The notes under the pieces were generated by a model. It did not search any database and was not told the origin of the DNA. It saw only the letters and a program-made list of their open reading frames with translations. The position numbers and the translations under genes are program-made. A stretch of 56,692 nucleotides of DNA from a virus. The stretch is from IMG/VR virus record IMGVR_UViG_3300042515_002525, positions 1 through 56,692 of that record, one strand, 5' to 3'. The stretch's first letter is position 1; each line of letters begins with the position of its first letter. Shown in pieces: positions 5,686-50,059 of the stretch.

Positions 5686-7677
5686 TTAATTTATAGTTAC
5701 CTGATCAATTAAAAGATTAGCATTAGGTAGATTGATATCGCAAGATATTGTTGAAGAATGTATGCGTACGTAATTATCCCAGTTATCTTCAAACGATCCC
5801 GGCATTTTGTTATTTTTTCGATAGCCTATACTTCCTTCTATTCTGGTAGGCATTCTATCTGCAGATATTTGCATCACTAGTACCGACACTGCCTCGATCT
5901 GCGGATTGACCATTCCTGCAGGAGGCGTAGTAGAAGCCTGAGAATACTCGTCATCCATACCCAAGATATTTATGATTGCTCCTTTCAAAGGCAGCCCTGA
6001 CGCAAGAGGTGCAGTACGTGTACTGTCGCTATAGAAATATGTGCCTCCTCCTGCGAGCCAATCGTAGAGCCGAGGTTGATCGCCGTTCGCTTTGCCGGGC
6101 TCTCCTGCATACAGATAGGCTACAGAATAGGACGGGATGTCTGTGGCTTGAAAATCCAGCAATAGCTCTGTGTTGTTCACAAGAGGAAGAAGTGCTGCAG
6201 GCTTTGTAAAATTGGTATTACCATCAAGCAGATCTGTCACAATACGAATATTTCCTAGCGAGCCTCTAAACTTGTTTGTGGAAGGTGGGAGATCTGCAGA
6301 GGTTTGTCCGTAGCCTATAACAGCGTTAGAGCCTATCCAGAGATTGTAGGTATTGTCGTTTAACAGTGTTATTCCTGTATCGGCAAGTACACCATCTATA
6401 AAAATTTTAAATACCGATGACACTGGTTCCCTGGTTACTCGCACATGATACCAAGTCGAAATAGCTATGGGCACTCCGTCACTAGCGAACACGCTGCCGT
6501 TATCTACACGCAGCCTGCCCTGCTTTATATGAACGTGTAACTTTGTGGCATTTGATTTATTTTTAAAGCAAAAAACACTTTGATCGTCTAGACTGCTGGT
6601 GTTGAGCCAAAAATCTAAATTTATCGTATTTGTTCTCACGTCGATAAATTCATCCACAATCAAAGCTCCAGGGGACGTGCTGTTTGCGGTAAGTCCAAAA
6701 CTAGCGCAACCTGCATCTGTATCTAGTTTTACATCTCCTCCAAAAGCTACATTTCTCAAGCTAAGAGAAGCATCGTCCATCCATCTAGCCAGCACAGGTA
6801 CACGCACACTTCCGTTAGTCAGTAGCAATTGTGTTTGATTAGTTTTAGGAGGAATGGTGTACGCTCTAGGCGCGATTAATCCAAAAACTGTAGGAATAGC
6901 TTCTGTTGTTGTGTTAACAGCTCTAAAATAGCAGAAAGCTTCGGCTTGTGCTTGTGTTGTGCTTTCAGAGACACATACATCTAGTCTAGGAACAACTCCA
7001 AGGTTAGCTGTGTTATTCCACGCGGGATCGAAAGCATTAACACCATTCGATTGATATAGCGCCATAGATCCTCCGCTCAGTACAATCTCTATAGGATCGC
7101 CTCCAGCAGGATTAACGAATATTTCTAGCTTACCGTTTAGATAAGTTGTTATCTTTCCATCATCGAATATAACGGCGAGATGATTCCAGCTGTTTGGAGA
7201 TATCTCTGTGGTTCCGGTTATTTTCCCGGTAGGATCGACGGCAACATCTCTCCACAGGAAAATTTGCTCTAGTGAAAATTTTGTATTATCTGTTGCGCTT
7301 GTTACGACAGAGTAATTTAACAAGTCGTAACCGTATCCACTCAAATAGAGCGTGCTGCCGCTCAGTGGAGTACCTATCGCTCTAAATATGATATCTCCGG
7401 AGCGCTTTACTCTAAATACTGTATCTATATAAAACTTGGTTGCTCCTAATGGAAATGCGCTAAGAGGTAGTTGTAGTGCTCCGTAGTCAGAAGACTGGTT
7501 TTTATACGCTATAGCATATTTGGCTGGAGTAGATGTGTCTGATTTCTGTTCTACATTCCCTACAAGTGTAACTGTTCTGCTATACCTCGATCTGTCCGCA
7601 TACCAGGATACGATAGAGGCTATACCTCCTAGAGCTTTAGAGGCACTATTAATGCCTGCTGTGGTTATTAAAGGCAT
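5686..7677 (-). CDS. Structural protein with two concanavalin/LamG-like lectin domains
   Basis: 663 residues. Two beta-sandwich lectin-like domains are visible. The first, about residues 60-270, contains WNHLAVIFDDGKITTYLNGK. The second, about 330-500, contains WYHVRVT followed by FKIFIDGVLADTG. This Trp-His...Phe-x-Asp/Asn-Gly pattern is typical of LamG/Laminin_G_3 domains, which bind carbohydrate. The C-terminal 150 residues (YAGEPGKANGDQ onward) show no domain I recognise. ATG at 7677 is preceded by AGGAG about 7 bases upstream, one of few clear Shine-Dalgarno sites here. Its place between a collagen-like and a LRR fibre gene suggests a tail-fibre or appendage role in glycan recognition (inference). 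Confidence 0.7.
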   Translation of the reverse strand: MPLITTAGINSASKALGGIASIVSWYADRSRYSRTVTLVGNVEQKSDTSTPAKYAIAYKNQSSDYGALQLPLSAFPLGATKFYIDTVFRVKRSGDIIFRAIGTPLSGSTLYLSGYGYDLLNYSVVTSATDNTKFSLEQIFLWRDVAVDPTGKITGTTEISPNSWNHLAVIFDDGKITTYLNGKLEIFVNPAGGDPIEIVLSGGSMALYQSNGVNAFDPAWNNTANLGVVPRLDVCVSESTTQAQAEAFCYFRAVNTTTEAIPTVFGLIAPRAYTIPPKTNQTQLLLTNGSVRVPVLARWMDDASLSLRNVAFGGDVKLDTDAGCASFGLTANSTSPGALIVDEFIDVRTNTINLDFWLNTSSLDDQSVFCFKNKSNATKLHVHIKQGRLRVDNGSVFASDGVPIAISTWYHVRVTREPVSSVFKIFIDGVLADTGITLLNDNTYNLWIGSNAVIGYGQTSADLPPSTNKFRGSLGNIRIVTDLLDGNTNFTKPAALLPLVNNTELLLDFQATDIPSYSVAYLYAGEPGKANGDQPRLYDWLAGGGTYFYSDSTRTAPLASGLPLKGAIINILGMDDEYSQASTTPPAGMVNPQIEAVSVLVMQISADRMPTRIEGSIGYRKNNKMPGSFEDNWDNYVRIHSSTISCDINLPNANLLIDQVTIN

Positions 7678-11797: not shown

Positions 11798-12478
11798 CTA
11801 ACCCCACTTATTTTTAAATGTATTCCTCTGCCCCATAGTCATATTTATTTTCTCATCTTTAAAAAGCTCTGTAGATTGTCCTGAGAAGTGACGCACCAGA
11901 GAATCTAGTACCAGTGCATGCTTATAGCCTGCTCGCTTTATCGTCTCTGCATAGTCATCATCCTGATACCAGAAAGGAAAACTCTCATCAAACAGCTTGC
12001 AGCTATCTATCAGCTCTCTGTGAGAAGCAATACACCAGCCTTTGACGTGGTGCCTTATTTCATATCCTTGCAGCCCTTCAACTCCTTGGTGTCCTTTCCT
12101 GAGCTGGTCCTCGTGTAAAGGATCACACGGAGAGAAGCTTTTCACATCAGGATTGTTTTTGTGGTAGTTCATCATTGCTGAAAACCAACCAGGATAGAAA
12201 ATGACGTCGTTGTTGACCACGACCACCCATTCTCTCGAACAGTACTCTAATCCTCTATTAAGAAACTTGTTGTAGTGAAATGGTTCGTTTGGAAAAATAC
12301 ACAAAGCCTCCGGATAACTGAATCCTTGGTTGTGTGCTTCTGAGTGAGACTCTACAAGTTTTACCTCGAAAGAATAATCTGTCTCCGACTCTTTCAAAGA
12401 GGCTAGAGCCTGTTTCGTCATTTTATAGAGTTCCTCGTTACTGGAACTGGCGAGCATAATAATATCAATTGGAATCAT
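11798..12478 (-). CDS. GT2-family glycosyltransferase
   Basis: 226 residues, the length of a bare GT-A domain. It opens with IDIIMLASSSNEELYKMTKQAL, the nucleotide-binding strand-helix of GT2. Then FLNRGLEYCSREWVVVVNNDVIF (about 75-97) supplies the donor/metal motif, here NND in place of DxD, as is common in rhamnosyl and related GT2 enzymes. FPFWYQDDDYAETIKRAGYKHALV (about 165-188) gives the ED-type catalytic acid. Acts in the cytoplasm with a nucleotide sugar. Its start overlaps the preceding gene by 4 bases (ATGA), so the two are translationally coupled. Confidence 0.85.
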   Translation of the reverse strand: MIPIDIIMLASSSNEELYKMTKQALASLKESETDYSFEVKLVESHSEAHNQGFSYPEALCIFPNEPFHYNKFLNRGLEYCSREWVVVVNNDVIFYPGWFSAMMNYHKNNPDVKSFSPCDPLHEDQLRKGHQGVEGLQGYEIRHHVKGWCIASHRELIDSCKLFDESFPFWYQDDDYAETIKRAGYKHALVLDSLVRHFSGQSTELFKDEKINMTMGQRNTFKNKWG

Positions 12479-13476
12479 AATACGTTTAATAGTGCGTTAA
12501 CTCTGTTTACATAGGTATGGTTTTCTTGTACATACCTCATTGCTGATTGAATTCTATCATAGTCTGTCAAGTAGGGTTGAGCTGCAGATAACAGTAACCC
12601 TGAGTTGTCAGAAAAAATAACATGGTCTTGCATCAAGTCTTTGACTGCAGGCGAATTAGTTATCCCTAGCTGTCCATAGCTTATGTTTTTAAAAGTTCTA
12701 CATGGAATATATCCTATAGATAGATGGTTGCATTCCTCTGCAGTAGATCCAGAGCAAGTTAGTCCGGACCCACGAATATCTGGAGCAATATACGACTTCT
12801 GAACAAGATGCTTCGCTTCCTCGTTGGTTGTCATCTTTTTCCAGGGGTCGTGAACCACAAAGCTAATGCCCTCTTTTTCCAGAGACTGCTGAAATTCTTG
12901 AAGCTCTTTCATGTTTGCCGACCAAGCAGAACCTATATGGTGCACTTCCCTGTCTCTAGGAATATATGCGTCATTCAGGTCGATCTCGTGAGGCAGCATG
13001 TCTGTAGCCCACATAACATAAACCGCCTCGTAGCCTGCGACTCCTTTTCTGTGTCTTTCTGCTAACGCGTTGTCGTTAGCATTTTTTTCATAGGCAGTGA
13101 AGGGGTCTACGCCAGTCAGACTCAGGTTAGCTAGACAATAGTCGTAAGTGTAGTCTCTAGTTCTTTTGACGTTAAACCTAATATCTATTAGACGAGCGCC
13201 CGCGCTCACAAACTTTGATGGATTTTTACAAACATGGACAAAATATGTGGACGAAGAGACTACCGGCATTTGTTCATCTGCATAGCCTTCGGTAATGAAA
13301 AGAGCGTTCTCGTAATCAAAGTCTGTAGGATGATCTTGGTCGTGGAACCAGTACGTTTCATAGCCTAGATGTTTAAAAGCTTTATACCATCCGTGGTGTA
13401 TGAACGAGTGCGAGTGTGAGTATAGAGGATATCCCCAAATAATCACTTTTTTAAATTTATGCATATTCCCTGTCAT
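12475..13476 (-). CDS. Probable GT-B-type glycosyltransferase or sugar-modifying protein
   Basis: 333 residues. Begins KKVIIWGYPLYSHSHSFIHHGWYKAF, followed by HLGYETYWF: a Rossmann-like opening with a GT-B flavour. Later features are REVHHIGSAWSANMKELQEFQQSL (about 175-200), GSGLTCSGSTAEECNHLSIGYIPCRT (about 235-260, like the acceptor/donor loop before the GT-B ExG region) and a C-terminal helix. No clean family signature is visible, so substrate is unknown. A start at Met5 is equally possible; AGGGAA lies just upstream of it. Sits between a GT2 enzyme and an unknown gene in the fibre-modification cluster, overlapping the GT2 start by 4 bases. Confidence 0.5.
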   Translation of the reverse strand: MTGNMHKFKKVIIWGYPLYSHSHSFIHHGWYKAFKHLGYETYWFHDQDHPTDFDYENALFITEGYADEQMPVVSSSTYFVHVCKNPSKFVSAGARLIDIRFNVKRTRDYTYDYCLANLSLTGVDPFTAYEKNANDNALAERHRKGVAGYEAVYVMWATDMLPHEIDLNDAYIPRDREVHHIGSAWSANMKELQEFQQSLEKEGISFVVHDPWKKMTTNEEAKHLVQKSYIAPDIRGSGLTCSGSTAEECNHLSIGYIPCRTFKNISYGQLGITNSPAVKDLMQDHVIFSDNSGLLLSAAQPYLTDYDRIQSAMRYVQENHTYVNRVNALLNVL

Positions 13477-13482
13477 ATAGTA

Positions 13483-14469
13483 TTATTTCTGTATTGCTAG
13501 AAATTTAGCAAGAGCATCTTCAATTTTTTCAATATTTTTAGTCGGTTTAAAGTATTTCAAATTTTCAATCGCTTTATTCAGAACAAGCAGAGCAACAGGA
13601 TCATGCTCGTCCATGTTGCTGCTTAAAAGTTTTTGATTTTCTAGCTTGTCGACATATCTAAAGTCTAGAGCGACATCTAGCTTGGTTTTACTCAACCTCT
13701 CTAGACCATATCTGTGCCTAGATAGTCCTACCAGCAGACCATTTCTCTTTGCTCTGCGTAGATACCCTAGGTAACCAGAAGGCTGCTCGTCCTGGTATTC
13801 TGCTAGATATTTTACCGTAGGATTTACCGCTCCATATATTTCTTGATGTATTCTACGCAACATAGAGCATTCCGGGACAATAAAACTTATGTTGTTTTCA
13901 GGTAGCAGGCATGAGGCAAGAGCGAGTACGGGCATGTTGTACTGCGCTTGTGAAAGCCAGCACTCATGCTCTTTTGAACCCTCAGTGTACGGATTCGACA
14001 GACGCAGAACTCTGACGAATAAAGAAAACTCTTCAGGGAGAATCTCTTCAATTTCTGTGGTCGTGATTGCGTCATTGCAAACGTCCGCACACAGTTCTCC
14101 GGAAATACGTATATTTTTAATTGCTCCATGATTCTGTAGGAGCTGCACTATTGCGGCATGAGGAAGAAGCGAGTTGTTATGAATCACATCTCCCTCAGTT
14201 ATTTTTTCAATGTTACTATAGATCGGGAAGCTTTGTTCTATCTCTGTAGCTATCTCTATTCTCTTGAATACTTCAATTTCCTGAGTGCTCCACGAACGGG
14301 TTTCCGCCAGCTTACTGTACACCTCGCTTAGAGAGCTACATGAGTACTCTGCAATCTCTCGCTCTTTTGCAAAATCAGTTACGGCTGTGCGACTCTCTAT
14401 CAGGTTAAACAAACCTGTTTTCGTTTTACATCTACGCCCTAACAGAGAGTCGAAACAGTTCCAGTGCAT
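13483..14469 (-). CDS. Unknown protein in the glycosyltransferase cluster
   Basis: 328 residues, soluble, no signal peptide or membrane segment. I do not recognise a family. The N-terminal third is helical and charged. The middle has IHNNSLLPHAAIVQLLQNHGAIKN and the end KAIENLKYFKPTKNIEKIEDALAKF. Position 6 bases upstream of the glycosyltransferase at 12475-13476 and 16 bases downstream of the methyltransferase makes a role in sugar synthesis or transfer plausible, but nothing in the sequence proves it. Confidence 0.6.
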   Translation of the reverse strand: MHWNCFDSLLGRRCKTKTGLFNLIESRTAVTDFAKEREIAEYSCSSLSEVYSKLAETRSWSTQEIEVFKRIEIATEIEQSFPIYSNIEKITEGDVIHNNSLLPHAAIVQLLQNHGAIKNIRISGELCADVCNDAITTTEIEEILPEEFSLFVRVLRLSNPYTEGSKEHECWLSQAQYNMPVLALASCLLPENNISFIVPECSMLRRIHQEIYGAVNPTVKYLAEYQDEQPSGYLGYLRRAKRNGLLVGLSRHRYGLERLSKTKLDVALDFRYVDKLENQKLLSSNMDEHDPVALLVLNKAIENLKYFKPTKNIEKIEDALAKFLAIQK

Positions 14470-14485
14470 TTCTTAACCTAAAGAA

Positions 14486-15019
14486 TTACAATCCTTCTGC
14501 AGCAATATAAGAGGCTAGCCTTATTGCTTGGGGAGTTTCTTCTGCGATAATCCTGTCATAGCAAGCAGCTCCGTATTCTTTGAATACTACCGCATTGTTT
14601 CTAAACCAACCCATATGATATCCAGAAACCATAAAAGCTATAAGCTTGTCTGTAGCTTCTGCATCTACCACGTAGTTTAACAGAGCAAATTTTTCTATCC
14701 AATACTCTTTGGGCTGACAATTGATATGTCCATGACCACCTTGACCTGGGATGGCAGCTGAAAACAACACTACTGGAGCCAGTCCTGTGAGTGTTTTAAC
14801 AAGGTCATCAGCTCTTGTCGCTGGTAGATGTTCAGCGACCTCGATACACATGGCTATGTCGTATTTTCCTTTGTATTTAGAATCAAAATCACTAGAAAAA
14901 ACGTCCATAACATCATATGGACAACGAGGATCAAGATCAACTCCATCAGCTTCCACACCAGCTTCTCTAAGAGCTTTGACATAAATGCCTGGCCCACACC
15001 CAACATCAATAATTTTCAT
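14486..15019 (-). CDS. Class I SAM-dependent methyltransferase
   Basis: 177 residues. Motif I is IDVGCGPGIYV at residues 4-14. The acidic ribose-binding residue lies in DGVDLDP (about 26-32). Motif IV is IAMCIEVAEHLP (about 55-66), the pattern of Methyltransf_11/UbiE-like enzymes acting on small molecules or sugars. C-terminal domain is short, with no DNA-recognition region, so DNA methylation is unlikely. Lies 1 base downstream of the GT4 gene, suggesting it methylates a sugar made or attached by the cluster (inference). Confidence 0.85.
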   Translation of the reverse strand: MKIIDVGCGPGIYVKALREAGVEADGVDLDPRCPYDVMDVFSSDFDSKYKGKYDIAMCIEVAEHLPATRADDLVKTLTGLAPVVLFSAAIPGQGGHGHINCQPKEYWIEKFALLNYVVDAEATDKLIAFMVSGYHMGWFRNNAVVFKEYGAACYDRIIAEETPQAIRLASYIAAEGL

Positions 15020-15020
15020 A

Positions 15021-16169
15021 TTATACGTATAGCGCTTTGAAGTTTAATCCGAGACCTGTATCCAAAGTACGATTGTGATCAGTATACCAACCTTCTTTGT
15101 TGAAGACGTCACTGAAGTCGTCAAAAGCCCTCTCAAACTTGGGTTTTACTGCAGTGAGACTAAAGTTATCGTTTGCGAAAGCTACCAATCTATTGCGATC
15201 AATAGTATCGACCAGACGTACTGCTCGCAGTATGTCTCCCATCGTATTGCATCTAAATCCGTTAACTCCATCAACGATGTACTCGGTCATTGCTCCGTTG
15301 TCTGCGCAGATAGGAACACAGCCGCTGAACAGCATCTCTACGGCAGTTCCGCCAAATGGTTCCCAATAAGTAGACAATAAGAACCCGAATTTGGCTCTGC
15401 CCATAAGGTCTTTTCTAGTAGCCACATCAGCATAGCCAAGATATTCAACATGCGCAGGCCACTCAGTCATTCCGATGTCTGATGGTCCTCCCTGACCACA
15501 CACCTTAAGTTTAACTCCTAGCCTCTTGCAGGCATCAATAGCGAGGTCGAGACCTTTGTTTGTTCCTATTCTACCAATATATAGTGCCCAGTCCTCTCTT
15601 TCCGATTTTGCCTCGAACTCTAGAGGATTAAAATAATTTGGGACAATTCTGTGATACCAGGTAGGATTACAGAACGATACGCCGTCTGTGCCCACATATG
15701 CTCCTTTTAAAGGATAGCTTTCGTAACATCTAAACTGCGCAAAAGCCCAGCCACTACCTATACCAGGCTCAACAACAATAAGATCTCCGTCTTTGTTGGC
15801 GATCTCGCACGCTTCTCTTGTTCCTCCCCAGAAAGCTAACACAAGATCAGACTTTTTCTTTCTTTTTAGAATCTCTCTTCCTGCGTTTTGATTGAATACC
15901 TTGTGAGCAAGGTCATCTGTAGCGTGCTTAAAGAACCCTTTCTTCCAATCATAATCTCCATAAGCAGAGTTTAGTACTTCATCACTTGTAACATCAACCT
16001 GCTCGTGAGCGTCTGTATCTGATTTGTTGTGTCCGTAGTGTATGGTTCTGTATTTGTCGCTGTCTTTAAACATCGTTAAAAACTTGCGTACTTTCTGAGT
16101 AAAAGCGCAAGCGACATAGTCAGCATTAGTTATTGTGTGCGGTAATCCTAGGCAGTGTAGTTGTGTCAT
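15021..16169 (-). CDS. GT4-family glycosyltransferase (GT-B fold)
   Basis: 382 residues from ATG 16169; a TTG two codons upstream is in frame but ATG is preferred. The C-terminal donor domain is clear: ALYIGRIGTNKGLDLAIDAC (about 192-211), VKLKVCGQGGP, a YLGYAD strand, then the EPFGGTAVEMLFSGCVPICA motif (about 268-287) with the nucleotide-binding E-x7-E pattern of GT4/Glycos_transf_1, and a final EYIVDGVNGF. N-terminal half is the acceptor domain (HYGHNKSD, EPGIGSGWAF). Cytoplasmic nucleotide-sugar-dependent enzyme. Lies between the FN3 giant and a methyltransferase. Confidence 0.9.
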   Translation of the reverse strand: MTQLHCLGLPHTITNADYVACAFTQKVRKFLTMFKDSDKYRTIHYGHNKSDTDAHEQVDVTSDEVLNSAYGDYDWKKGFFKHATDDLAHKVFNQNAGREILKRKKKSDLVLAFWGGTREACEIANKDGDLIVVEPGIGSGWAFAQFRCYESYPLKGAYVGTDGVSFCNPTWYHRIVPNYFNPLEFEAKSEREDWALYIGRIGTNKGLDLAIDACKRLGVKLKVCGQGGPSDIGMTEWPAHVEYLGYADVATRKDLMGRAKFGFLLSTYWEPFGGTAVEMLFSGCVPICADNGAMTEYIVDGVNGFRCNTMGDILRAVRLVDTIDRNRLVAFANDNFSLTAVKPKFERAFDDFSDVFNKEGWYTDHNRTLDTGLGLNFKALYV

Positions 16170-16214
16170 ACCCAAGCAGACTACATCAAACTACAAACTA
16201 ATGTCTATATATTT

Positions 16215-32914: not shown

Positions 32915-33361
32915 TTAAAGAGTTTTTGATACCTTTCTCTTTCCGTAAGCCTCTAGCAGCTTTTCTTTAACTGCGTCTGCATCTTTGTTTATTTCTTTTT
33001 CATCCAGTCGAAGCACAACATAGCCTGCTTTCTCAAGCCTCTTGGTCTTTTCTCTGTCTTTATACTCTTTCATTGCTCCGCTATGCCAGTAGGTGCCGTC
33101 AGCAAAAACAACCACATTAGGAGCTATAAATATGTCTGCTACAGTAATACCTAGTAGCGGTTGTTGAGTGACGAATGCTATATCTAGAGCAGCTAGTATT
33201 TCTTGTAGCTTAAGCTCTATGCTTGTTTCTTTCCTGTCTCCAGACAAATAGCCTTTTATGCTAGCGCATTTCGTGCTGCAGGTTTTGCCTTGTCTCATTC
33301 TTTCTGTCTCTCTGTTCCATATCTTTCCGCATATGGAACATTCATGCGTTTTATGCCTCAT
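32915..33361 (-). CDS. Vsr-like / PD-(D/E)XK endonuclease with zinc-binding N-terminus
   Basis: 148 residues. N-terminal Cys pairs CSICGKIW and CSTKC (residues about 8-11 and 28-32) suggest a small zinc-binding unit, as in HNH-like and homing-type nucleases. The catalytic part has an upstream Glu (SIELKLQEIL), VADIFIAPNVVVFADGTYWHSG (about 74-95), and KTKRLEKAGYVVLRLDEKEI, matching the V-F-x-D-G-x-x-W-H...L-x-x-x-G-Y/W-x-V-x-R order of very-short-patch-repair endonucleases. Vsr enzymes nick at mismatches; phage versions often act as homing endonucleases. Its ATG overlaps the stop of the DUF1501 gene by one base (TAATG), so they are cotranslated. Confidence 0.7.
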   Translation of the reverse strand: MRHKTHECSICGKIWNRETERMRQGKTCSTKCASIKGYLSGDRKETSIELKLQEILAALDIAFVTQQPLLGITVADIFIAPNVVVFADGTYWHSGAMKEYKDREKTKRLEKAGYVVLRLDEKEINKDADAVKEKLLEAYGKRKVSKTL

Positions 33362-34719
33362 TAAGCGATTATTTCTTTTATTACATTTCCAAATACATCG
33401 GTAAGCCTGAATGGTCTGCCGTTATACTCGTAGATTAGCTTTGTGTGATCAAACCCCATGAGCTGCAGTATTGTAGCGTGGAGATCGTGAACATGTACCA
33501 CATCTTTCACAGATGTCGAGCCGATCTCATTTGTCTCTCCGTATTTCTGTCCGCCTTTTACACCACCTCCACTCATCCATATGCTAAAAGCTTTGCCGTT
33601 ATGATCTCTTCCTGGTGCCCCAGCCCCTCCTCCAGCAATGCTCGTTCTGCCAAACTCACCTCCCCAAATCACTAGTGTAGAGTCTAGCAAGCCTCTTTGC
33701 TTGAGGTCTGTGAGCAGCGCACTAAATGCCTGATCATATCTTCCTGCTGTTCTAGTCATGTTTGTTTTGATGTCGCTGTGGTGGTCAAACCCTCCCACAT
33801 TTACCTGAACCATCCTCACCCCTTTCTCTACAAGCCTACGAGCAAGCAGCATTCTTGCTCCCTCTTCTGTGCGTCCATACAAATCTTTTATTGTCTCAGG
33901 CTCTCTGCTGAGGTCAAAAGCATCTGTAGCCTCAGTCTGCATCTTAAAAGCCACCTCAAAAGCCTCTATTCTAGACTCTAGCTGCACATCTCTTTGCAGC
34001 TGCTTCATGTGATCGAGATTCATCATTTTTGAGAAATCTATCTGCCTTCTCTGCCTGTCGAGAGTAGAGAACTCGCTGCGTATGTTGTTGAGAGCCTCTT
34101 CTGCTCTCATACCGAGCTTATAGTTTATGTTACACCCTTGATACATGCCTGGAAGAAAAGCGCATTGCCTCCAGGTAGCGTCACCATTCAAGGTTACAAA
34201 GCCTGGCATGCTCTGATTCACGGTTCCAAGACCATACACGAGCCATGAACCTAGGCTTGGCTTTGGCAGCTGTGTAGAGCCTGTGCTCATCATCTTTTGA
34301 GCAATGCCATGGTCTGGCACATCTGTCTGCATAGAATTGATGATAGCCATATCATCCGCATGTTTACCCAGCTTTGACCATACCTCAGATATCTCTAGAC
34401 CTGATTTGCCAAATCGTGGAAACTCAAAAGGAGAAGCAAGCAGCTGTCCTCCTCCATCATTCACTCCATCTCTTTTTTTTAGCTCTGGCTTAAAATCAAA
34501 TGTATCAAGATGAGAGGGTGCCCCTGTAGCAAAAAGATGAATCACCGCCTTTGCTTTTACAGGGAAGTGAGGATTTTTTGGTTGCAGTGGGCTTGCTCCC
34601 TCGGATGTTGAAACACCGAACAGTGAGGCTAGTGAAAGACCCCCAAGGCCCCAGCCAAACTTGGTGAGCAGCTCTCTTCTAGTTGTAGGATTAGTGTCGT
34701 GATTACCGCAGTCTTGCAT
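33361..34719 (-). CDS. DUF1501 (sulfatase/alkaline-phosphatase-like) exported protein, second copy
   Basis: 452 residues from ATG 34719; a longer frame to 34776 would overlap an opposite-strand gene. The N-terminus TTRRELLTKFGWGLGGLSLASLFG is a twin-arginine signal (RR at 14-15). It carries the DUF1501 (PF07394) pattern: VIHLFATGAPSHLDTFDFKP, DMAIINSMQTDVPDHG, then LVIWGGEFGRTS (about 348-359), GRDHNGKAFSIWMSGGG, and VHVHDLHATILQLMGFDH near the end. The family resembles the alkaline-phosphatase fold and is greatly expanded in Planctomycetota and Verrucomicrobiota; no member has a firmly known reaction. Finding it, complete and Tat-targeted, inside a phage block is unusual. Paired with the copy at 34907-36178. 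Confidence 0.88.
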   Translation of the reverse strand: MQDCGNHDTNPTTRRELLTKFGWGLGGLSLASLFGVSTSEGASPLQPKNPHFPVKAKAVIHLFATGAPSHLDTFDFKPELKKRDGVNDGGGQLLASPFEFPRFGKSGLEISEVWSKLGKHADDMAIINSMQTDVPDHGIAQKMMSTGSTQLPKPSLGSWLVYGLGTVNQSMPGFVTLNGDATWRQCAFLPGMYQGCNINYKLGMRAEEALNNIRSEFSTLDRQRRQIDFSKMMNLDHMKQLQRDVQLESRIEAFEVAFKMQTEATDAFDLSREPETIKDLYGRTEEGARMLLARRLVEKGVRMVQVNVGGFDHHSDIKTNMTRTAGRYDQAFSALLTDLKQRGLLDSTLVIWGGEFGRTSIAGGGAGAPGRDHNGKAFSIWMSGGGVKGGQKYGETNEIGSTSVKDVVHVHDLHATILQLMGFDHTKLIYEYNGRPFRLTDVFGNVIKEIIA

Positions 34720-34747
34720 AGTCTTTTGTGGTTTGTATAATCTACTT

Positions 34748-34906
34748 ATGAAACGTATCTGGTATATATGGTCCAAGGCAATTGGCGAAAAGTCTCACAA
34801 AGACAATGAAATTGCAGATCAAATAGCAATAATAAGAACTTTAATTATTTTTTGCTATATAATCACCAACATCTTCATCGTTGCTGGAATAATACGCCAC
34901 TGGTGA
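34748..34906 (+). CDS. Small one-helix membrane protein on the opposite strand
   Basis: 52 residues, ATG 34748 to TGA 34904-34906. It fills the gap between the two DUF1501 genes exactly, its stop abutting the stop of the upstream copy at 34907. The N-terminal half is polar and basic (WSKAIGEKSHKDNEIADQ). The C-terminal half is one transmembrane helix, IAIIRTLIIFCYIITNIFIV, ending IIRHW. The order S-K-A-x-G-E-K...x-D-x-x-I-A-x-x-I-A-x-I-R-T...T-N-x-F-I-V...I-R-H-W resembles a short uncharacterised protein I recall from cyanophages and other phages, which supports a real gene. The DUF1501 start at 34719 leaves it free of overlap. Confidence 0.6.
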   Translation: MKRIWYIWSKAIGEKSHKDNEIADQIAIIRTLIIFCYIITNIFIVAGIIRHW

Positions 34907-36178
34907 CTAGGTGAGCAGGTCGTGCATAACACTTCCGTTATACACGATTTTTACAGGCCTTCCGCCTCCTCCTTCAAGAGTACCTTCAGGGTTGATGCCT
35001 ATCTGATGGTATAGTGTGGCAGCGAGATTCTCTACTGTTACAGGCTTCTCATCAACATCATCTCCTGTGACGCTAGACTGACCATACACTAGTCCTTTTT
35101 TGAAGCCTCCTCCTGCAAAAACAACAGAGAACACTCTAGGCCAGTGATCTCTACCTGCATCTTTGTTGATCTTTGGAGTGCGTCCAAATTCAGAACTGAT
35201 CATCACCAGTGTAGAGTCTAGCATGCCTCTCTGTTCGAGATCAGTTATCAAGGTGGAGTAGGCCTGGTCAAAAGCAGGTAGAGCCTTGCTTATGCCGTTG
35301 CCTATTGTTGTGTGCATGTCCCAGCCGCCGTAGGTAACAGACACATATCTAACCCCTGCCTCTACCATTCTTCTGGCCATAAGAAGTCGCTGACCTGCCT
35401 GGTTTCTTCCATAAGCATCTCGCATAGCCTGAGTCTCACGATCTATTGCAAAGGCCTCTCTGGCTTTTGGAGAAGCTATAAGGTCATATGCCTGCTGATA
35501 GAAAGTATCCATAGCAGACAAAGAGTCGCTCTTTTCTAGATACCTGAAATGACTGTCCACTGTATCGAGTATGGACCTTCTTCTGTCAAAGCGCTCTTCC
35601 GATACGTTTGATGAAAGATCTCTTACCTTGAATCCCTCGGCTGCAGGATCGCTTCCCAGACTGAATGGTCCGTATGCTGTGGGCAAGAAGCCTGCGCCAA
35701 GAGCATCTGTGCCGTTATTCTCCATCTTTTGAGGTATACAGACATATGCAGGCAGGCTGTTTCTTCCTCCCTGCTGTTGAGATATTACAGAACCAAAAGA
35801 TGGATAGGTTATAGCAGGAGAGGGCTTGTAACCTGTAAACATACTAGTTACTCCTCGCTCATGCGCAGCTTCGCCGTGGGTCATCGAACGTACAACAGTC
35901 AGCTTGTCCGCAATTCTAGCTGTTTTGGACAGATGCTCAGAGAAATGTATTCCTGGGATGCTTGTGGCTACAGATTTTAGAGGTCCTCTATACTCAGAAG
36001 GAGCGTTTATTTTTGGATCCCATGTTTCCTGTGCGGCTGCTCCGCCAGGAAGAAATATATGAATAACCGAGCTAGCCTTTGGAACTGTTGCAGACTCTGC
36101 CTGTAGTTTAAGCACGTCTCCCAGACTCAAGCCTAGTCCACCAAACAATCCTGTGTATAGAAATTCACGTCTGTTCAT
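34907..36178 (-). CDS. DUF1501 (sulfatase/alkaline-phosphatase-like) exported protein, first copy
   Basis: 423 residues. Tat signal peptide MNRREFLYTGLFGGLGLSLG (RR at 3-4). The DUF1501 order is complete: VIHIFLPGGAAAQETWDPK, then the SIPGIHFSEHLSKTARIADK region and VVRSMTHGEAAHERG (about 75-105), LVMISSEFGRTPK (about 320-332), GRDHWPRVFSVVFAGGGFKKG, and VTVENLAATLYHQIGINP. The conserved His in the THGEAAHE segment and Asp/His in GRDHW fit metal binding in an alkaline-phosphatase-like fold. Length is normal for the family. It differs enough from the second copy to be an old pair rather than a recent duplicate. It lies 1 base from the holin-like gene upstream. Substrate unknown; export across the inner membrane is likely. 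Confidence 0.9.
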   Translation of the reverse strand: MNRREFLYTGLFGGLGLSLGDVLKLQAESATVPKASSVIHIFLPGGAAAQETWDPKINAPSEYRGPLKSVATSIPGIHFSEHLSKTARIADKLTVVRSMTHGEAAHERGVTSMFTGYKPSPAITYPSFGSVISQQQGGRNSLPAYVCIPQKMENNGTDALGAGFLPTAYGPFSLGSDPAAEGFKVRDLSSNVSEERFDRRRSILDTVDSHFRYLEKSDSLSAMDTFYQQAYDLIASPKAREAFAIDRETQAMRDAYGRNQAGQRLLMARRMVEAGVRYVSVTYGGWDMHTTIGNGISKALPAFDQAYSTLITDLEQRGMLDSTLVMISSEFGRTPKINKDAGRDHWPRVFSVVFAGGGFKKGLVYGQSSVTGDDVDEKPVTVENLAATLYHQIGINPEGTLEGGGGRPVKIVYNGSVMHDLLT

Positions 36179-36179
36179 A

Positions 36180-36545
36180 TTATTTGTATGTTTTGGGTTT
36201 AGCTGTTCTGCTCTTCGGTTTTCTTATAACTGCTCTCTTTTTCTTGCCTGCTGCTTTCTCTTGCATTTCCTTAAAAAGCTCCCACTGCCACCAGCTAAGC
36301 CAGAAAAAAGTAACGCTGATTCCAACATTTAAAATCACTTCTGTAACTGGAGGTGCGCTAAGAGTGAGTACATTCGCCGAAGCTCCGCAAATCACAATAG
36401 ATAGTCCTCCTTTAGCAAGCCAGGCCTTCACGCTATTATCCCAGACAGGATTATCAGGATCACCGAATATGTGAATGAGCAGTCCAAGAGCAGAAAGGGA
36501 CGTGGTTATATTGGCAACGGCATTGATGGTGGTCTCTGTAATCAT
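36180..36545 (-). CDS. Holin-like membrane protein
   Basis: 121 residues with three predicted membrane helices (about 8-27 NITTSLSALGLLIHIFG region, 45-62 GGLSIVICGASANVLTL, 68-90 VTEVILNVGISVTFFWLSWW) and a highly basic tail (KKKRAVIRKPKSRTAKPK). Small size, multiple helices and a charged C-terminus are holin traits. Its partner upstream has the same architecture. Both sit away from the lysozyme gene, so a structural or DUF1501-related role is also possible. Confidence 0.5.
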   Translation of the reverse strand: MITETTINAVANITTSLSALGLLIHIFGDPDNPVWDNSVKAWLAKGGLSIVICGASANVLTLSAPPVTEVILNVGISVTFFWLSWWQWELFKEMQEKAAGKKKRAVIRKPKSRTAKPKTYK

Positions 36546-36546
36546 A

Positions 36547-36921
36547 TTAGTCTATCCTTGGTACATTTCTTTTCCTGGGCTTTCTTCTTCTGTAAGAATA
36601 GGCTGTCTTTTGTGCACTTTCATGCAGCTCTTTGTGCGCAGACTCTGGAATGATTTTTCGACTAAAATATTCGATGCCTCTCAGTCCAAGGAAACCAAGC
36701 AGAAAAGCTATTCCATAGTGGTAGTGTGTATTGTCTAACTTTGTTACGTTAACCACAATAGGAGTTAGATAGTTAGCGCTGGCTGCTCCTCCTATTAAAC
36801 TAGATATTGTTCTTGTTAAGTTTACCGCTGTATCCTTACTTGTAAGCAATATAGCGCCAAACAACCCACTCATGAGTAAACCTACATCTATACCGTACTC
36901 TTTTAGGTTGTTTTGATTCAT
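36547..36921 (-). CDS. Phage holin-like membrane protein
   Basis: 124 residues from ATG 36921. The frame extends upstream but that part overlaps the 960-residue gene, and the ATG matches the start of the known pattern NLKEYGIDVGLLMSGLFGAIL. Helices at about 10-26, 38-56 (LIGGAASANYLTPIVVNV) and 68-84 (YGIAFLLGFLGLRGIEY), then a basic C-terminus. The S-A-N-Y-L-T-P and G-F-L-G-L-x-G-x-E-Y strings resemble holins of phages infecting Bacteroidota and cyanobacteria. It lies 1 base from the genes on both sides. Confidence 0.6.
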   Translation of the reverse strand: MNQNNLKEYGIDVGLLMSGLFGAILLTSKDTAVNLTRTISSLIGGAASANYLTPIVVNVTKLDNTHYHYGIAFLLGFLGLRGIEYFSRKIIPESAHKELHESAQKTAYSYRRRKPRKRNVPRID

Positions 36922-36922
36922 A

Positions 36923-39805
36923 TTATTTCTCTTTGTCTGCGTTAGGCTTTTTCTTTTCAGTTTTTGGTCTGCAACTATCCTCACTATATGCTTCTTTTCC
37001 AGGAACAGGTTCATAGCCTTCCCAGCATCTGCCTGACCCTTGCTTTACATTTGCTTGTGGAGGTCCGGCATATGGTAAGCTCAAAGGTTCTTTGAACTTA
37101 CCGTGGTATTCTCTAAATGATTTATCAAACCCAGGGTTATTTTTCCGTAAATTTTTAGATAGTGGACGGCCAACCATTTTAAATGGATCAAACTCTGGAG
37201 AAATTTTCTCAAGAGTTTGTGACATATATTTTCCTATGGGAGCCATTATAGGCATAGCCGACTGATTAAATTTTTGCACAGCCGCCATGTGGTCAGGGAG
37301 GCTAACATCTAGACTTTGAGGAAGTGTGAGCCCTTCGGTGTGTATGAAATCCTGTAATGGTGCAATTAGATTAGTCCCCGTCCGGTATGTATTATATCCT
37401 GCACTTGCAGTAGGTGTGTATTTTTGCTGTAGAGCTTCAGGAACTCCGAGCCGTTGCATCTCTCTCAATGCATTCGTATTTGCAGTGTTTTCTAGTTGTA
37501 GTGAAACTGCAGGCATTTTAGTTTTAAGCTCTTGTGTCATAGCCGAAGGATGAGTAGTCATTTGCCTGTATGCCTCCAGTACCTTATCTTTATCTAAAAA
37601 ATGTCCATATTCGTGCCAGAACTTCGCAAGTGGGGAGAATCCGTCTTTTCTATATTTTCCAGTTATTTGAATCATATTTTCAATAGGCGAGTATTCTGAA
37701 GTGCCCATAACTCTACGCAATTTACCTCCAGAGGCTTTAAAGTTTCTTAGTATGTTTTTACTAGCCGACAGAGTCATTGCCTGTTTCTCTGTGATCGATT
37801 CACTATGTTCTGTAACAGGTTTGCTTTGACTGGCTGCAGAAGCTGCTTGTTTGCTCATTAGTGCACGCAGCTGAGAAATTAGAGGTTCTATCTGATGCTC
37901 TGTATGATTATAGTTGATAACCCCTGGAAGCTTCCTGAACTTCTCAATTCCAGGCTCCCAGAAGTCTACTACCGCTCTCGCTTTCATTTGCTTTTCTAGA
38001 ATTTCTTCTGGAGAAAATGTGACACCTTTCTTTTTAGCTGAGCGAGCAATTCTTTGAGCTATACTTTGCTCAGGATCTCCTCCCACAAGAATATGTGCTC
38101 TATATTTTGCGAGCTCTTCAGGAGTCATATGTCCTAACTGAGCTCCCTCAATAATTGAAGCGGGAGGACTGTTATCTATAGTGTGCTTGTTTGCTCTGTG
38201 TACAAGGTCTGTATAGAACTTGTGCTCGTCTGTGCCTGGGGTTAGCGACTTTTGCCAGCGTCCGTGGTCATCTTTAGTAACATATTCTTTAAACTCAGGA
38301 TGCTTATCCACACTATGCAAAGGTAGACCAAGTTTTTCAGCTATCGTTTGCGCCAGTGTAGTTTTTCCTGCTCCGCTGTGTCCTGTGACTAGAATAGATT
38401 GCGCCGGATCGGCAGCAGCTTGTTTATTCATCAGTGCACGCAGCTGCTCTATCAAAGGCTCTACCTCATGCTCTGTGTGATTATAATTAATTACACCAGG
38501 AACCTTTTTAAACTTCTCCATTCCTGGACTCCACGAGTCAGCTACCATTCTGGACTCTAGCATTTTTCTATCTAGATCTTCAGGAGATAAGGTTATTCCT
38601 TTTTTAGCTGCTTTGTCTGTCATACGCTGCAACCGCTGAGCTATAGACTGCTCAACGTCACCACCCACAAGAACATTAGCCATATATTTTTTGAGCTGTC
38701 TTGGTCCTAGTGTGGTTACCTGTGTACCTTCAAGAACAGCTGGACCCTCCATCTCTTTCAGAGACTTGCCTACAATCTTTCGAATATCTTTGATATACTG
38801 CTTATTCTCAGCGGAACCTGGAGTTAGAGCGAGTCTTTCATAGTCAGGTCTACTCTCTAAATCTGCTCTTAGATTGTCCCAGCTCTCCTGAGCATCTACT
38901 CTATGTAGTGGAATATTTAATTTCTCTGCTAGCGCTTTAGCTAGTGTGCTCTTACCAGCTCCGCTGTGTCCTGTAACCAGTATAGTCTTACTTGGATCAG
39001 CTGCTCCTTCTTTACTCAGCTTATCCCATTGTTTCTTGTCTGGATAATCCTCGTCTCCAGGCTTAGCTGCTTTCTCTCCACGCTTTCTTTTTGCATGAAT
39101 ATTTGCCCATAAACCAGGCCGCTCACCAGACTGCTTTTCGTTCTTTTCAGTTTGTTGAAAAGACTGCTCTGTTTTTTCAACAGGAAAACACAAGTCACCT
39201 TTCACCTCATACCCTTCAGGCACACTATATCCCATATCCTTGAGATATTCACCACTGAATGCTTCTCCCTTGTCTATAAGCTTAGCCACCTCTTTAGGTA
39301 CCCCTGCCACCTTCTCGATATACGAGTATATGTCTAGTACTTCGGCGCTTTTCTCCAATCCAGTGTATTCCTCAATATCCAGATCATAACCAAGCTTGCC
39401 CAGCAGCTCCAGGTCTTCGGGATTTGTATACTCCTCACCATTCACATCTATAATCCCTGTGCTTCTTCTATACTCTGCAGTCTTTCTGCTTGGTGTTCTG
39501 ATGGGTTGAGTAGCTGCTGATCTATATGCATTAGTGCCACTCAGCTGAGGAGCAGGAGGCGGCTGATTGCTTGGAGGTGCTTGAGGTTTTGGTGCTCCTT
39601 GTTGAGGAACTGTGGGACTCTGTACAGGTTTGAAGTTTTTGTCTGCTACGCTAAATGACGTGGTCATTGGGTTGCCTCGAGCTACAGGCACACCTACCTG
39701 CTGAGGCAATACCCCCAGATGATTCTGTGCCACCATACCAGGAACACTCGGAGACACTGAATGAGCAAGGGCGATCTTTTCAAATAGCTCTCTTATAGAA
39801 TGCAT
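36923..39805 (-). CDS. Tandem P-loop kinase protein with HExxH domain
   Basis: 960 residues. The N-terminus SIRELFEKIALAHS bears the cluster's Lys-x-Ala motif; a second, YSYIEKVAGVPKE, is at about 160. A Pro-rich linker follows. Two P-loop domains in tandem, GHSGAGKSTLA (about 275-286) and GHSGAGKTTLA (about 470-481), each 195 residues, share the ends INYNHTEH[EQ][VI]EPLI and QLRALM[NS]KQAA. Each has a D near the first strand (HRVDAQ, HSVDKH) and R-rich lid, like AAA_33 or zeta-toxin-type kinases. At about 725-740, FWHEYGHFLDKD gives a HExxH zinc-peptidase-like motif. The last 50 residues include CWEGYEPVPGKEAYSEDSC. Substrate unknown; the fusion suggests an injected or virion-carried effector (inference). 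Confidence 0.65.
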   Translation of the reverse strand: MHSIRELFEKIALAHSVSPSVPGMVAQNHLGVLPQQVGVPVARGNPMTTSFSVADKNFKPVQSPTVPQQGAPKPQAPPSNQPPPAPQLSGTNAYRSAATQPIRTPSRKTAEYRRSTGIIDVNGEEYTNPEDLELLGKLGYDLDIEEYTGLEKSAEVLDIYSYIEKVAGVPKEVAKLIDKGEAFSGEYLKDMGYSVPEGYEVKGDLCFPVEKTEQSFQQTEKNEKQSGERPGLWANIHAKRKRGEKAAKPGDEDYPDKKQWDKLSKEGAADPSKTILVTGHSGAGKSTLAKALAEKLNIPLHRVDAQESWDNLRADLESRPDYERLALTPGSAENKQYIKDIRKIVGKSLKEMEGPAVLEGTQVTTLGPRQLKKYMANVLVGGDVEQSIAQRLQRMTDKAAKKGITLSPEDLDRKMLESRMVADSWSPGMEKFKKVPGVINYNHTEHEVEPLIEQLRALMNKQAAADPAQSILVTGHSGAGKTTLAQTIAEKLGLPLHSVDKHPEFKEYVTKDDHGRWQKSLTPGTDEHKFYTDLVHRANKHTIDNSPPASIIEGAQLGHMTPEELAKYRAHILVGGDPEQSIAQRIARSAKKKGVTFSPEEILEKQMKARAVVDFWEPGIEKFRKLPGVINYNHTEHQIEPLISQLRALMSKQAASAASQSKPVTEHSESITEKQAMTLSASKNILRNFKASGGKLRRVMGTSEYSPIENMIQITGKYRKDGFSPLAKFWHEYGHFLDKDKVLEAYRQMTTHPSAMTQELKTKMPAVSLQLENTANTNALREMQRLGVPEALQQKYTPTASAGYNTYRTGTNLIAPLQDFIHTEGLTLPQSLDVSLPDHMAAVQKFNQSAMPIMAPIGKYMSQTLEKISPEFDPFKMVGRPLSKNLRKNNPGFDKSFREYHGKFKEPLSLPYAGPPQANVKQGSGRCWEGYEPVPGKEAYSEDSCRPKTEKKKPNADKEK
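37830..38989 (-). repeat. Intragenic tandem duplication of a 585-base P-loop domain
   Basis: Copy 1 is about 38405-38989 and copy 2 about 37830-38404. The protein copies align end to end, with near-identical P-loop and C-terminal INYNHTEH...LRALM segments and more divergent middles. The repeat unit includes the trailing Lys-Gln-Ala-Ala. Confidence 0.75.
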
Positions 39806-48102: not shown

Positions 48103-48273
48103 ATGGAAAAACATGGCATGCTTACAGACGAATCGCTTAGCGATTTTGACAATACTAAGAAAGCAGAGTATTACGATGCAGAGGGATTCAAGGTAGCTGA
48201 TGAATCAAATAAACATAAGCTGACTCGCCCCGAAAAAATTGAAAATTTAAAAGAACAAAATCTTAATGATTAA
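48103..48273 (+). CDS. Small acidic protein before portal
   Basis: 56 residues, ATG 48103 to TAA 48271-48273: MEKHGMLTDESLSDFDN at the start, RPEKIENLKEQNLND at the end. Starts 3 bases after the preceding stop and overlaps the portal start by 8 bases, which supports translation. Function unknown; small acidic proteins next to portal can be scaffolding helpers. Confidence 0.55.
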   Translation: MEKHGMLTDESLSDFDNTKKAEYYDAEGFKVADESNKHKLTRPEKIENLKEQNLND

Positions 48274-50059
48274 CTCCGACGACCCTCAAAGTTACTTTAA
48301 TCTAGCTAATAGTGGTAGAGACCGCTATTCTAATCCTTTTTACAACATACCTCTTCAGTACCTTCCGATGAATATCGAAGGTATGCTTTTGTGGGCAGAG
48401 CATTTGCTTTTTAGAAACGGCTTTTATAAGCAAGCTCTGAATAGAATAGCTAACTATTTTATTACATCTTTGACTGTAGATTGTGATGATGAAGAGGCCA
48501 AAAAGAAGTACGTTGAAATTCTTGATAAGCTTCAATGGAAAAAAGTTTGCTCTAAAGCTGGCTTAAACCTGCTTGCTTACGGTAATGAGTTTGTAACTGT
48601 AAACCAAGGATTTTACAGATATCTTACTTGTCCTAGCTGTAAGAAAACTTCAAATATTGATAAACTTAACAATTTTGAGTTTAACAAAGGCAAGTATCTC
48701 ATGACTTGTTTGAAGTGCTCTTATAAAGGAGAGCATGAATGCGTTGATAAGCCTGCCAACGATGTCGAAAAAATTCATGTTGTTCATTGGCCAGCAAAAG
48801 AGATTCGTATCAGATACGAGGAGACTACAGGAGAAGCAGAATACTTTTGGGATATTCCTGGGCAATATTCTAAAAAAGTAATGACAAAGAACAATAAGTT
48901 CTATAGCAAAAAAACACCAAAGATCGTTTTTGAATGTGTCTTTAACAAGACAATGCTGGCGTTTAACTCAAAAAACTTTGTTCATCTAAAGCTTGATACT
49001 CCTAATACGTTGAGGACAGATGGAAAAGCCATACCTCCAAGCATGTTCATTTTTGAAGATTTCTTCATGCTTCAAACATTAAAGAGATATAATGAAGTTA
49101 TATGCTTTGAAGACATTGCTCCCTTCCGTGTAATTGCGATGGGAGATGCTTCTAACCCGGCAGCAAACCCTTTACTCAATCAGAATGGGGCTGTTTGGTC
49201 TAGCGCTGTCGACGAGATGATCGATGAACACCGTAGAGACCCTGGAGCTTATCATAAATTCGCATTTCCCCTAAACTATCAGCAGTTAGGTGGCGACGGT
49301 ACAAAGTTGGCACCTACGGAGCTAATGGAACAGGCAAAGAATAATATTCTAAATGCTCTCGACATCCCTATTGAGATGTTCCAGATGAATTTTCAGCAAC
49401 AAGCTGCTGGCCCAATGCTGCGTATGTTTGAAAATGCTTGGAGCGTAGTGCCGAGCAATTACAACATTCTGTTGAACCATATGGGCGAAGTAATCGGCAA
49501 TATCATGGGGCTTCCCAAAGCCAAGATATCGTTAATTCCGATTACATTCAGTGACGACATCGAAAGAAAGAGTGTTATTGGACAGCTTGTCTCTGCGAAC
49601 TCTATCGCCAGGTCTGAACTGCTCAAACTCTACAACTTCGATTACGAAGATCAGGTCAGGAAAAAGATGCAGGAAGATCGTACTGTACAAGAAATTCAAG
49701 AAGAAGAAATGGAAAAGCAGCAGATCTCGCAGGCGACTCAGCAGAACGTTATGCAGATGCTTCAGGGAAATCCACAGCAAGGAGGAGCCCCTGGAGGACA
49801 AATGCCTGCTCAGGGTGGTGGTGGAGGAGGCGTTACGCCGCAGGATGCTCTCGCACAGGCACAGCAGATAGCGCAGCAGCTATTCCCTCTCGACGCAGCT
49901 CAAAGAAGATCTCAGCTGCAGCAGATCAAGGCCACCGACCAGGACTTGTATGCTCAAGTAAAAGCTCAGCTAGAACAAATGACATCTCAATCAAAATCCC
50001 AAGGGTTAGCTGGAGCAAAACAGCAAGCTGCCGGAGGAGGTCAACAGCAACAACAATGA
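48266..50059 (+). CDS. Portal protein with zinc-ribbon insertion
   Basis: 597 residues. Forms the dodecameric DNA gate at the head vertex. Portal-like stretches: IPPSMFIFEDFFMLQTLKRYNEVI followed by APFRVIAMG (about 250-290); NNILNALDIPIEMFQMNFQQ (about 360-380); PMLRMFENAWSVVPSNYNILL; and the C-terminal helical stem. A CPSC...CLKC pair at about 121-152 forms a zinc-ribbon insertion. The C-terminal 110 residues are Gln/Gly-rich (QQGGAPGGQMPAQGGGG), probably disordered. ATG 48266 overlaps the small gene before it. Confidence 0.8.
   Translation: MINSDDPQSYFNLANSGRDRYSNPFYNIPLQYLPMNIEGMLLWAEHLLFRNGFYKQALNRIANYFITSLTVDCDDEEAKKKYVEILDKLQWKKVCSKAGLNLLAYGNEFVTVNQGFYRYLTCPSCKKTSNIDKLNNFEFNKGKYLMTCLKCSYKGEHECVDKPANDVEKIHVVHWPAKEIRIRYEETTGEAEYFWDIPGQYSKKVMTKNNKFYSKKTPKIVFECVFNKTMLAFNSKNFVHLKLDTPNTLRTDGKAIPPSMFIFEDFFMLQTLKRYNEVICFEDIAPFRVIAMGDASNPAANPLLNQNGAVWSSAVDEMIDEHRRDPGAYHKFAFPLNYQQLGGDGTKLAPTELMEQAKNNILNALDIPIEMFQMNFQQQAAGPMLRMFENAWSVVPSNYNILLNHMGEVIGNIMGLPKAKISLIPITFSDDIERKSVIGQLVSANSIARSELLKLYNFDYEDQVRKKMQEDRTVQEIQEEEMEKQQISQATQQNVMQMLQGNPQQGGAPGGQMPAQGGGGGGVTPQDALAQAQQIAQQLFPLDAAQRRSQLQQIKATDQDLYAQVKAQLEQMTSQSKSQGLAGAKQQAAGGGQQQQQ

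Follow-up and report, generated by a model that had tools for sequence, protein, structure and literature searches.

Tandem DUF1501 genes with twin-arginine signals in a large phage, and their relatives in other viruses and in bacterial hosts

Closest described systems

The DUF1501 proteins (PF07394), whose function is called unknown in those parts of the literature that were accessible, occur in Verrucomicrobiota and Planctomycetota together with PSCyt and PSD1 proteins, and are the closest described relatives of two virus-encoded proteins considered here. Their genes, termed A and B, lie on the minus strand of IMG/VR record IMGVR_UViG_3300042515_002525, a linear virus record of 56.7 kb (G000) whose whole stretch of 56,692 nucleotides was analysed and is referred to as the window. 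With a confidence slightly above even, A and B are read here as host-derived hydrolases that are exported by the twin-arginine translocation (Tat) system to act on an envelope or extracellular polymer, and as two deeply different DUF1501 paralogues of the Planctomycetota-Verrucomicrobiota-Chlamydiota (PVC) bacteria that have been kept under selection.

The cellular proteins share with A and B the same full domain, the Tat signal and the invariant residues. The phage copies differ in forming clades of their own, in their phage-like codon use, in often standing in tandem, and in having PSD1 in only 10 of 50 virus records. These 50 records were selected for holding DUF1501, mostly by length, such that its presence in all 50 is by construction, and several are near-copies. 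In host loci, a PSD1 gene is found within two open reading frames (ORFs) of DUF1501 in 57 of 96 cases, a count in which a simple ORF caller missed the DUF1501 gene itself in 14 of the 96. None of 80 type-A loci from hosts, taken with flanks of up to 6 kb, showed a second DUF1501 copy, whereas tandem copies, taken as same-strand neighbours at most 450 bases apart, occur in 29 of 36 multi-copy virus records, several of which are near-copies of each other; one host genome (G005) holds one close same-strand DUF1501 pair.

In the accessible parts of the relevant papers, surface-lake Verrucomicrobia are described as rich in PSCyt genes, which often lie close to sulfatases, have no known function and may take part in carbohydrate use (PMC5615132), a Tat motif is noted on DUF1501 proteins encoded beside chitin synthases (PMC5122149), and a phage study lists a 61-residue protein with a weak DUF1501 match (PMC5418858). 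Among the papers listed by literature searches, with most subscription journals and preprints outside their coverage, nothing on phage DUF1501 genes was seen. The family does recur in large IMG/VR viruses, and protein A0A6J5M742 of an uncultured Caudovirales phage is already named DUF1501 in BFVD/UniProt, whereas a preliminary description of the window knew of no described phage case; this protein was compared through its database label and a structure match only, Foldseek pairing it with the modelled B (E 2e-4).

Further afield, sulfatases, ENPP phosphodiesterases and lipoteichoic acid synthases resemble A and B in the fold, as computed, and in the part of the C-terminal region that surrounds a residue of the metal site. 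In S1 sulfatases, C/S-x-P/A-S-R is the formylglycine motif; it is absent from the sequences of A and B, which also lack a PF00884 match and carry a His at the spacing of the nucleophile. The missing CxPSR-type motif led to the rejection of an S1 sulfatase identity. A different parallel is offered by host-derived auxiliary metabolic genes of phages, such as cyanophage phoA. A and B are likewise captured host genes and intact; their type is nested within cellular sequences, and their neighbours are phage genes. DUF1501 is set apart from phoA and its kind as a biochemically uncharacterised family, captured several times and often in tandem.

The DUF1501 pair of the window

Gene A (type A; 34907..36178) encodes 423 residues beginning with the Tat signal MNRREFLYTG..., and gene B (type B; 33361..34719) encodes 452 residues with the Tat signal TTRRELLTKFGWGLGG. 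The search with the PF07394 hidden Markov model that the preliminary description had called for matched both over the full profile, at 375 bits (E 6e-112; profile positions 2-390) for A and 427 bits (E 9e-128; positions 1-390) for B, far above the curated cut-off of 27 bits, while neither protein has a PHROG or NCBIfam match. The listed ORF of B reaches a TTG at 34776; the ATG at 34719 is most likely its start, because the ORFs of five relatives (L005, L010, L018, L019, L021) begin at the equivalent Met. The proposed order of family motifs stands for EFGRT and GRDH, which are present in both proteins; the PSHLDTFD-type motif is found as GAPSHLDTFD in B, and A has only an equivalent, LPGGAAAQETWDP. 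The two share about 30% identity, and in the family tree a long branch with good support separates them.

The twin arginines ascribed earlier to both signal peptides are indeed there, and the two corresponding alignment columns hold Arg in 142 and 144 of 146 representatives. Of 165 distinct viral DUF1501 ORFs, 156 have a Tat-like pattern, as defined by a home-made motif rather than by SignalP; the 1067 remaining viral ORFs at these loci include 5 with the pattern.

The representatives were drawn from a starting set of 234 viral and 117 cellular sequences, of which 14 (loci L226-L239) were moved from the viral to the cellular side, giving 220 and 131; after reduction at 82% and 78% identity, 66 viral and 80 cellular sequences remained. 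All 146, the window proteins included, agree at sixteen positions, among which are H106, E248, D287, H289, D304, E330, R333, R343 and H345 of A. The ratio of nonsynonymous to synonymous substitution rates (dN/dS) was computable in four of nine pairs, at 0.059, 0.078, 0.088 and 0.097, dS being saturated in the remaining five. Given the 16 invariant positions and dN/dS values of 0.06-0.10, the viral DUF1501 proteins are probably active. Further viral types, at 34-39% from the cellular set, were also noted; one of these (L034, L035, L037, L048, L052, L064, L084), at 35-38%, has a His in place of the otherwise conserved Asp54.

Origin in bacterial hosts

Ten near host genomes encode 29-71 DUF1501 genes each. 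Among the best 80 matches listed for A, the first 15 cellular relatives (62-66% identity) all bear verrucomicrobial names, mostly Chthoniobacteraceae or Spartobacteria, and the best cellular match of B among 113 genomes of one class (66%) comes from a Spartobacteria bin, G003; record titles that give environmental bins the name of a cultured species (e.g. Akkermansia muciniphila) were not relied on. The large phage of the window probably infects Verrucomicrobia. Across the viral type-A representatives, the nearest cellular relative stands at 58-75% identity, with 66% for the A protein of the window.

A tree of type A (63 rows; LG+G4, no mixture, bootstrap not settled) places window A in a virus-only clade of nine (100/96) that joins four verrucomicrobial rows (100/99), and it gathers ten phage rows of another lineage into a clade (99/99) that joins two Planctomycetota rows (100/99). 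A single viral type-A clade appeared in 0 of 200 bootstraps, and imposing it costs 192 log units (approximately unbiased test, p-AU 7e-5). Since a single viral origin is rejected at p = 7e-5, the same host type-A gene was captured repeatedly. For type B, a quick family-wide tree with long branches puts window B in a virus-only set of nine (SH-like approximate likelihood ratio test, 100) adjoining the G003 copies. One phage type-B gene (L185, 9914-11362) is 80% identical to a G003 gene and 67% identical to the nearest other phage representative, which speaks for a recent exchange. The trees indicate that DUF1501 genes have been captured several times, and type A from at least two phyla; with viral clades beside Verrucomicrobiota and inside Planctomycetota, the host derivation suggested in the preliminary description is upheld by phylogeny with host proteins.

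Codon use adds a measure of residence time. The G+C content at third codon positions (GC3) is 0.40 in A and 0.43 in B, which is like that of five other window genes (0.34-0.42) and unlike that of seven host genes (0.62-0.80), and A and B have therefore resided in phages for long.

Fold and candidate active site

A profile built from 63 DUF1501 proteins and compared with chains of solved structure gave 20 distinct matches at E <= 5, all of them lipoteichoic acid synthases, sulfatases or ENPP4, with a best E of 0.0049 and only the first chain below 0.01; searches with the single sequences gave one match, at E 0.54, for A and none for B. Structure models of the two proteins were built from shallow alignments (13 and 11 rows). 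For the model of B, the 50 structure matches listed all belong to the alkaline phosphatase superfamily, a membership that we presume for some of them, and the best is ENPP6 (VIA-align Z 14.1, root-mean-square deviation 4.0, 224 aligned); the poorer model of A agrees (Z 10.9). The computed DUF1501 fold is that of the alkaline phosphatase superfamily, which fits the idea of a phospho- or sulfo-ester substrate.

An hhalign comparison with seven host sulfatases (E 1e-5 over 87 columns) aligns the Glu of GEFGR with the Asp of SDNG, which we take to be the metal-binding Asp of sulfatases. Cys is the nucleophile of the sulfatases, and at an equal spacing in the alignment the DUF1501 proteins carry an invariant His, nine residues before a TG position in 145 of 146 rows. 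Judged by this spacing, by which the nucleophile slot was assigned rather than by a solved structure, the His appears to fill the place of the usual nucleophile.

Proposed role

As hydrolases of host origin, A and B would act in the following manner. Phages acquired DUF1501 paralogues from Verrucomicrobiota or Planctomycetota hosts and have retained them under selection; during infection the host Tat system would export A and B, folded and metal-loaded, to the periplasm. There the two enzymes would cleave a bond of phosphate- or sulfate-ester type in a polymer of the envelope or outside the cell, one that the host would also process by means of its many DUF1501 paralogues. The two would probably act together or in sequence, and the phage may gain either a polymer-fed cell that is kept supplied or an envelope that is altered before release. 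Because many other large phages carry DUF1501 too, it probably helps the virus at the host envelope or on polymers outside.

Several results weigh against this proposal. On the side of chemistry, no activity of any DUF1501 protein is reported in the literature examined, which was accessible in part, and His rather than Ser, Thr or Cys stands at the spacing usual for the nucleophile, so that hydrolysis could take another route or not occur. The models have low to middling confidence (predicted local distance difference test scores of 48 for A and 57 for B; predicted TM-scores of 0.53 and 0.67), and Foldseek on B gave TM-scores of only 0.12-0.33, with two matches below E 0.001. The evidence for export is a sequence pattern only, and dS is near saturation (1.9-2.8) in three of the four pairs from which dN/dS was obtained. 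On the side of gene content, some records of 150-190 kb (G049, G055, G057, G058) hold a single DUF1501 copy, and the pair is thus not universal; PSD1 was not found in 40 of the 50 virus records, many of which may be fragments; and neither PSCyt nor PSD1 was matched among those window ORFs that were scanned, a subset that included the neighbours of A and B, in a window that may itself be a fragment. The gene neighbourhood, finally, varies by lineage between holin-like or fibre genes and a replication module, and therefore points at no one function.

A wider and more tentative proposal, which we would put clearly below even, is that large phages of Verrucomicrobiota and Planctomycetota repeatedly took over part or all of the greatly expanded DUF1501 and PSCyt/PSD1 export system of their hosts, the outcome being a tandem, co-expressed pair that is needed in infection and has a His for the usual nucleophile. 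If true, phages would provide a first lever on the role of these giant gene families of PVC bacteria. Between one and four DUF1501 genes, with the same type-A gene recurring, have been retained independently by several phage lineages, and this marks out which paralogues matter and reduces them to small, testable sets. The phage genes can also serve as a marker for phages that infect uncultured members of Verrucomicrobiota and Planctomycetota.

Occurrence in other viruses

Relatives of A are encoded by 158 stretches of IMG/VR (the best 80 of 158 were used) and relatives of B by 37, and the 50 records examined hold one copy in 14 cases, two in 23, three in 10 and four in 3. Among 50,697 annotated phage records, B had no match and A a single partial one (34.8% over 30% of A), on an unverified faecal contig.

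Where PSD1 (DUF1553), the usual host partner, is present in the viruses, it is seen directly beside a type-B gene in six records (G049, G052, G057-G060), about 1 kb away with one gene between in G017 and G018, and between two DUF1501 genes in G035; its placement in G053 was judged by coordinates only. A Pfam scan of four phage partner proteins found PSCyt1, PSCyt2 and PSD1 in L023, PSCyt2 and PSD1 in L061 and L080, and PSCyt1 and PSCyt2 in L022, which is cut at the end of its locus; these are the domains that make up the bacterial module. The presence in phages of cytochrome domains of planctomycete type was noted in its own right at L022 19874-21260 and L023 7976-10957.

It is these partners, together with a second type of neighbourhood, that bear on a possible role in nutrition. 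In L073 the DUF1501 pair separates genes for a recombinase, a DnaB helicase, a primase, a nucleotide kinase and an exonuclease from a split DnaE polymerase, and these same clusters are seen again in about 30 loci, a number that includes near-copies. Phosphate, sulfate or sugar freed from periplasmic or surface polymers could feed phage DNA synthesis, as with a classical auxiliary metabolic gene, and the placement of the pair between nucleotide kinase or exonuclease and DNA polymerase genes agrees with this, as do the phages that hold DUF1501 with PSCyt and PSD1 domains and, in the accessible part of the study, the gene context by which PSCyt genes in lake Verrucomicrobia were linked with the use of carbohydrates (PMC5615132). 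The lineage of the window, however, has its genes beside holin-like and fibre genes, and we regard a role purely in supply as possible but doubtful. The DnaE-type polymerase of L073 (16636-20522) and its relatives is itself divided into two ORFs around an exonuclease subunit gene.

Phage context and assembly of the window

Gene B overlaps by one base, at its 3' end, a gene for a DUF559/Vsr-like nuclease (32915..33361, minus strand; PF04480, 37 bits; phrog_559 HNH endonuclease, 2.6e-10; 70% in L010 and L017). Between A and B lies a gap of 187 bases (34720..34906, minus strand) in which reading of the sequence found no predicted feature of note, and promoter and terminator scans of the A/B region did not rise above shuffles. 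One base upstream of A stands a minus-strand gene for a small protein (36180..36545) with two hydrophobic stretches by hydropathy, which is holin-like by position only, has no match in Pfam or PHROG and has a 64% homologue in L010. Farther upstream on the same strand come a holin-family protein (36547..37014; phrog_2359 holin, E 1.2e-11; 78% in L010) and a phage protein of 960 residues with two repeated P-loop kinase-like domains (36923..39805; 62% in L010). These Pfam and PHROG matches bear out the initial observation of two complete DUF1501 genes inside a phage block, flanked by holin-like genes and a nuclease.

Such neighbours invite a second explanation, in which a charged group would be stripped from the host surface such that released virions would not adhere to debris, or that phages attempting superinfection could not attach. 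DUF1501 lies downstream of holin-family genes in the window and in L010, and at some distance from them in L012; fibre genes stand on the same strand in the window, and the predicted periplasmic export is compatible. The location in a replication module elsewhere runs counter to it, and PSD1 and the cytochrome domains are hard to account for, which makes an effect on envelope or receptor unlikely as the main role. A lysis-cassette role was rejected as a general rule on similar grounds: the link to lysis is weak because another lineage has DUF1501 in a replication module, away from holins. The fibre genes within the same strand block could also suggest that A and B are virion parts, e.g. a tail depolymerase; this is very improbable, for Tat signals on nearly all copies would direct the proteins out of the cytoplasm, the site of virion assembly, and A and B have no structural domain.

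About 21 kb around the pair (23364-44773) matches contigs of two other metagenomes in one piece (99.98% and 99.995%; the samples may come from the same site); there is no sign of a chimera, and a chimeric assembly was rejected. L010, a virus contig of 184 kb, keeps most of the window neighbours in the same order at 29-78% identity, with extra genes inserted, and has A and B adjacent, at 74% and 73% identity to the window copies. The earlier judgement that the pair is not a contamination edge is sustained by both comparisons, and neither of the outcomes named there as refuting, a chimeric assembly or a failed PF07394 match, was obtained. In L010, the closest long relative of the window, a papain-family peptidase gene (6523-7557) separates the DUF1501 pair from the holin-like genes.

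One could also suppose that the window and related records are cellular contigs wrongly filed under viruses. In favour of this, DUF1501 is common in the presumed hosts, and none of the terminase and Gp23 queries matched the window; a terminase from G015 matched 5 of 22 records, the window not among them. On the other side, 15 records carry on the same contig a match to terminase above cut-off, in a search of 50 records, or to the Gp23 capsid protein, in a search of 51; of 14 control genomes, 6 are matched by the terminase model too and none by the Gp23 model. The relatives have a phage-type replication module, the viral sequences form virus-only clades with a GC3 that differs from that of hosts, and the window encodes, besides its holin, an RNA ligase/tail-fibre attachment protein (phrog_562, 5e-38), an exonuclease (phrog_704) and collagen-like fibre proteins. 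Contamination was rejected for the group on the strength of the replication module and the terminase or Gp23 contigs, the window itself being without a Gp23 match, and misfiling is hardly credible.

On the plus strand, a conserved protein of 597 residues (48266..50059) is weakly portal-like (PF05133, E 0.0065, below cut-off) and has copies at 83-84% identity in three virus records of 150-190 kb that hold DUF1501 (G012, G049, G055), the G055 copy having one internal stop. The window also carries three tRNAs. Positions 1056-27192 hold long fibre-like genes in which collagen repeats, LamG domains and 11 fibronectin III domains occur, and glycosyltransferase and methyltransferase genes lie among them at 11798-16175.

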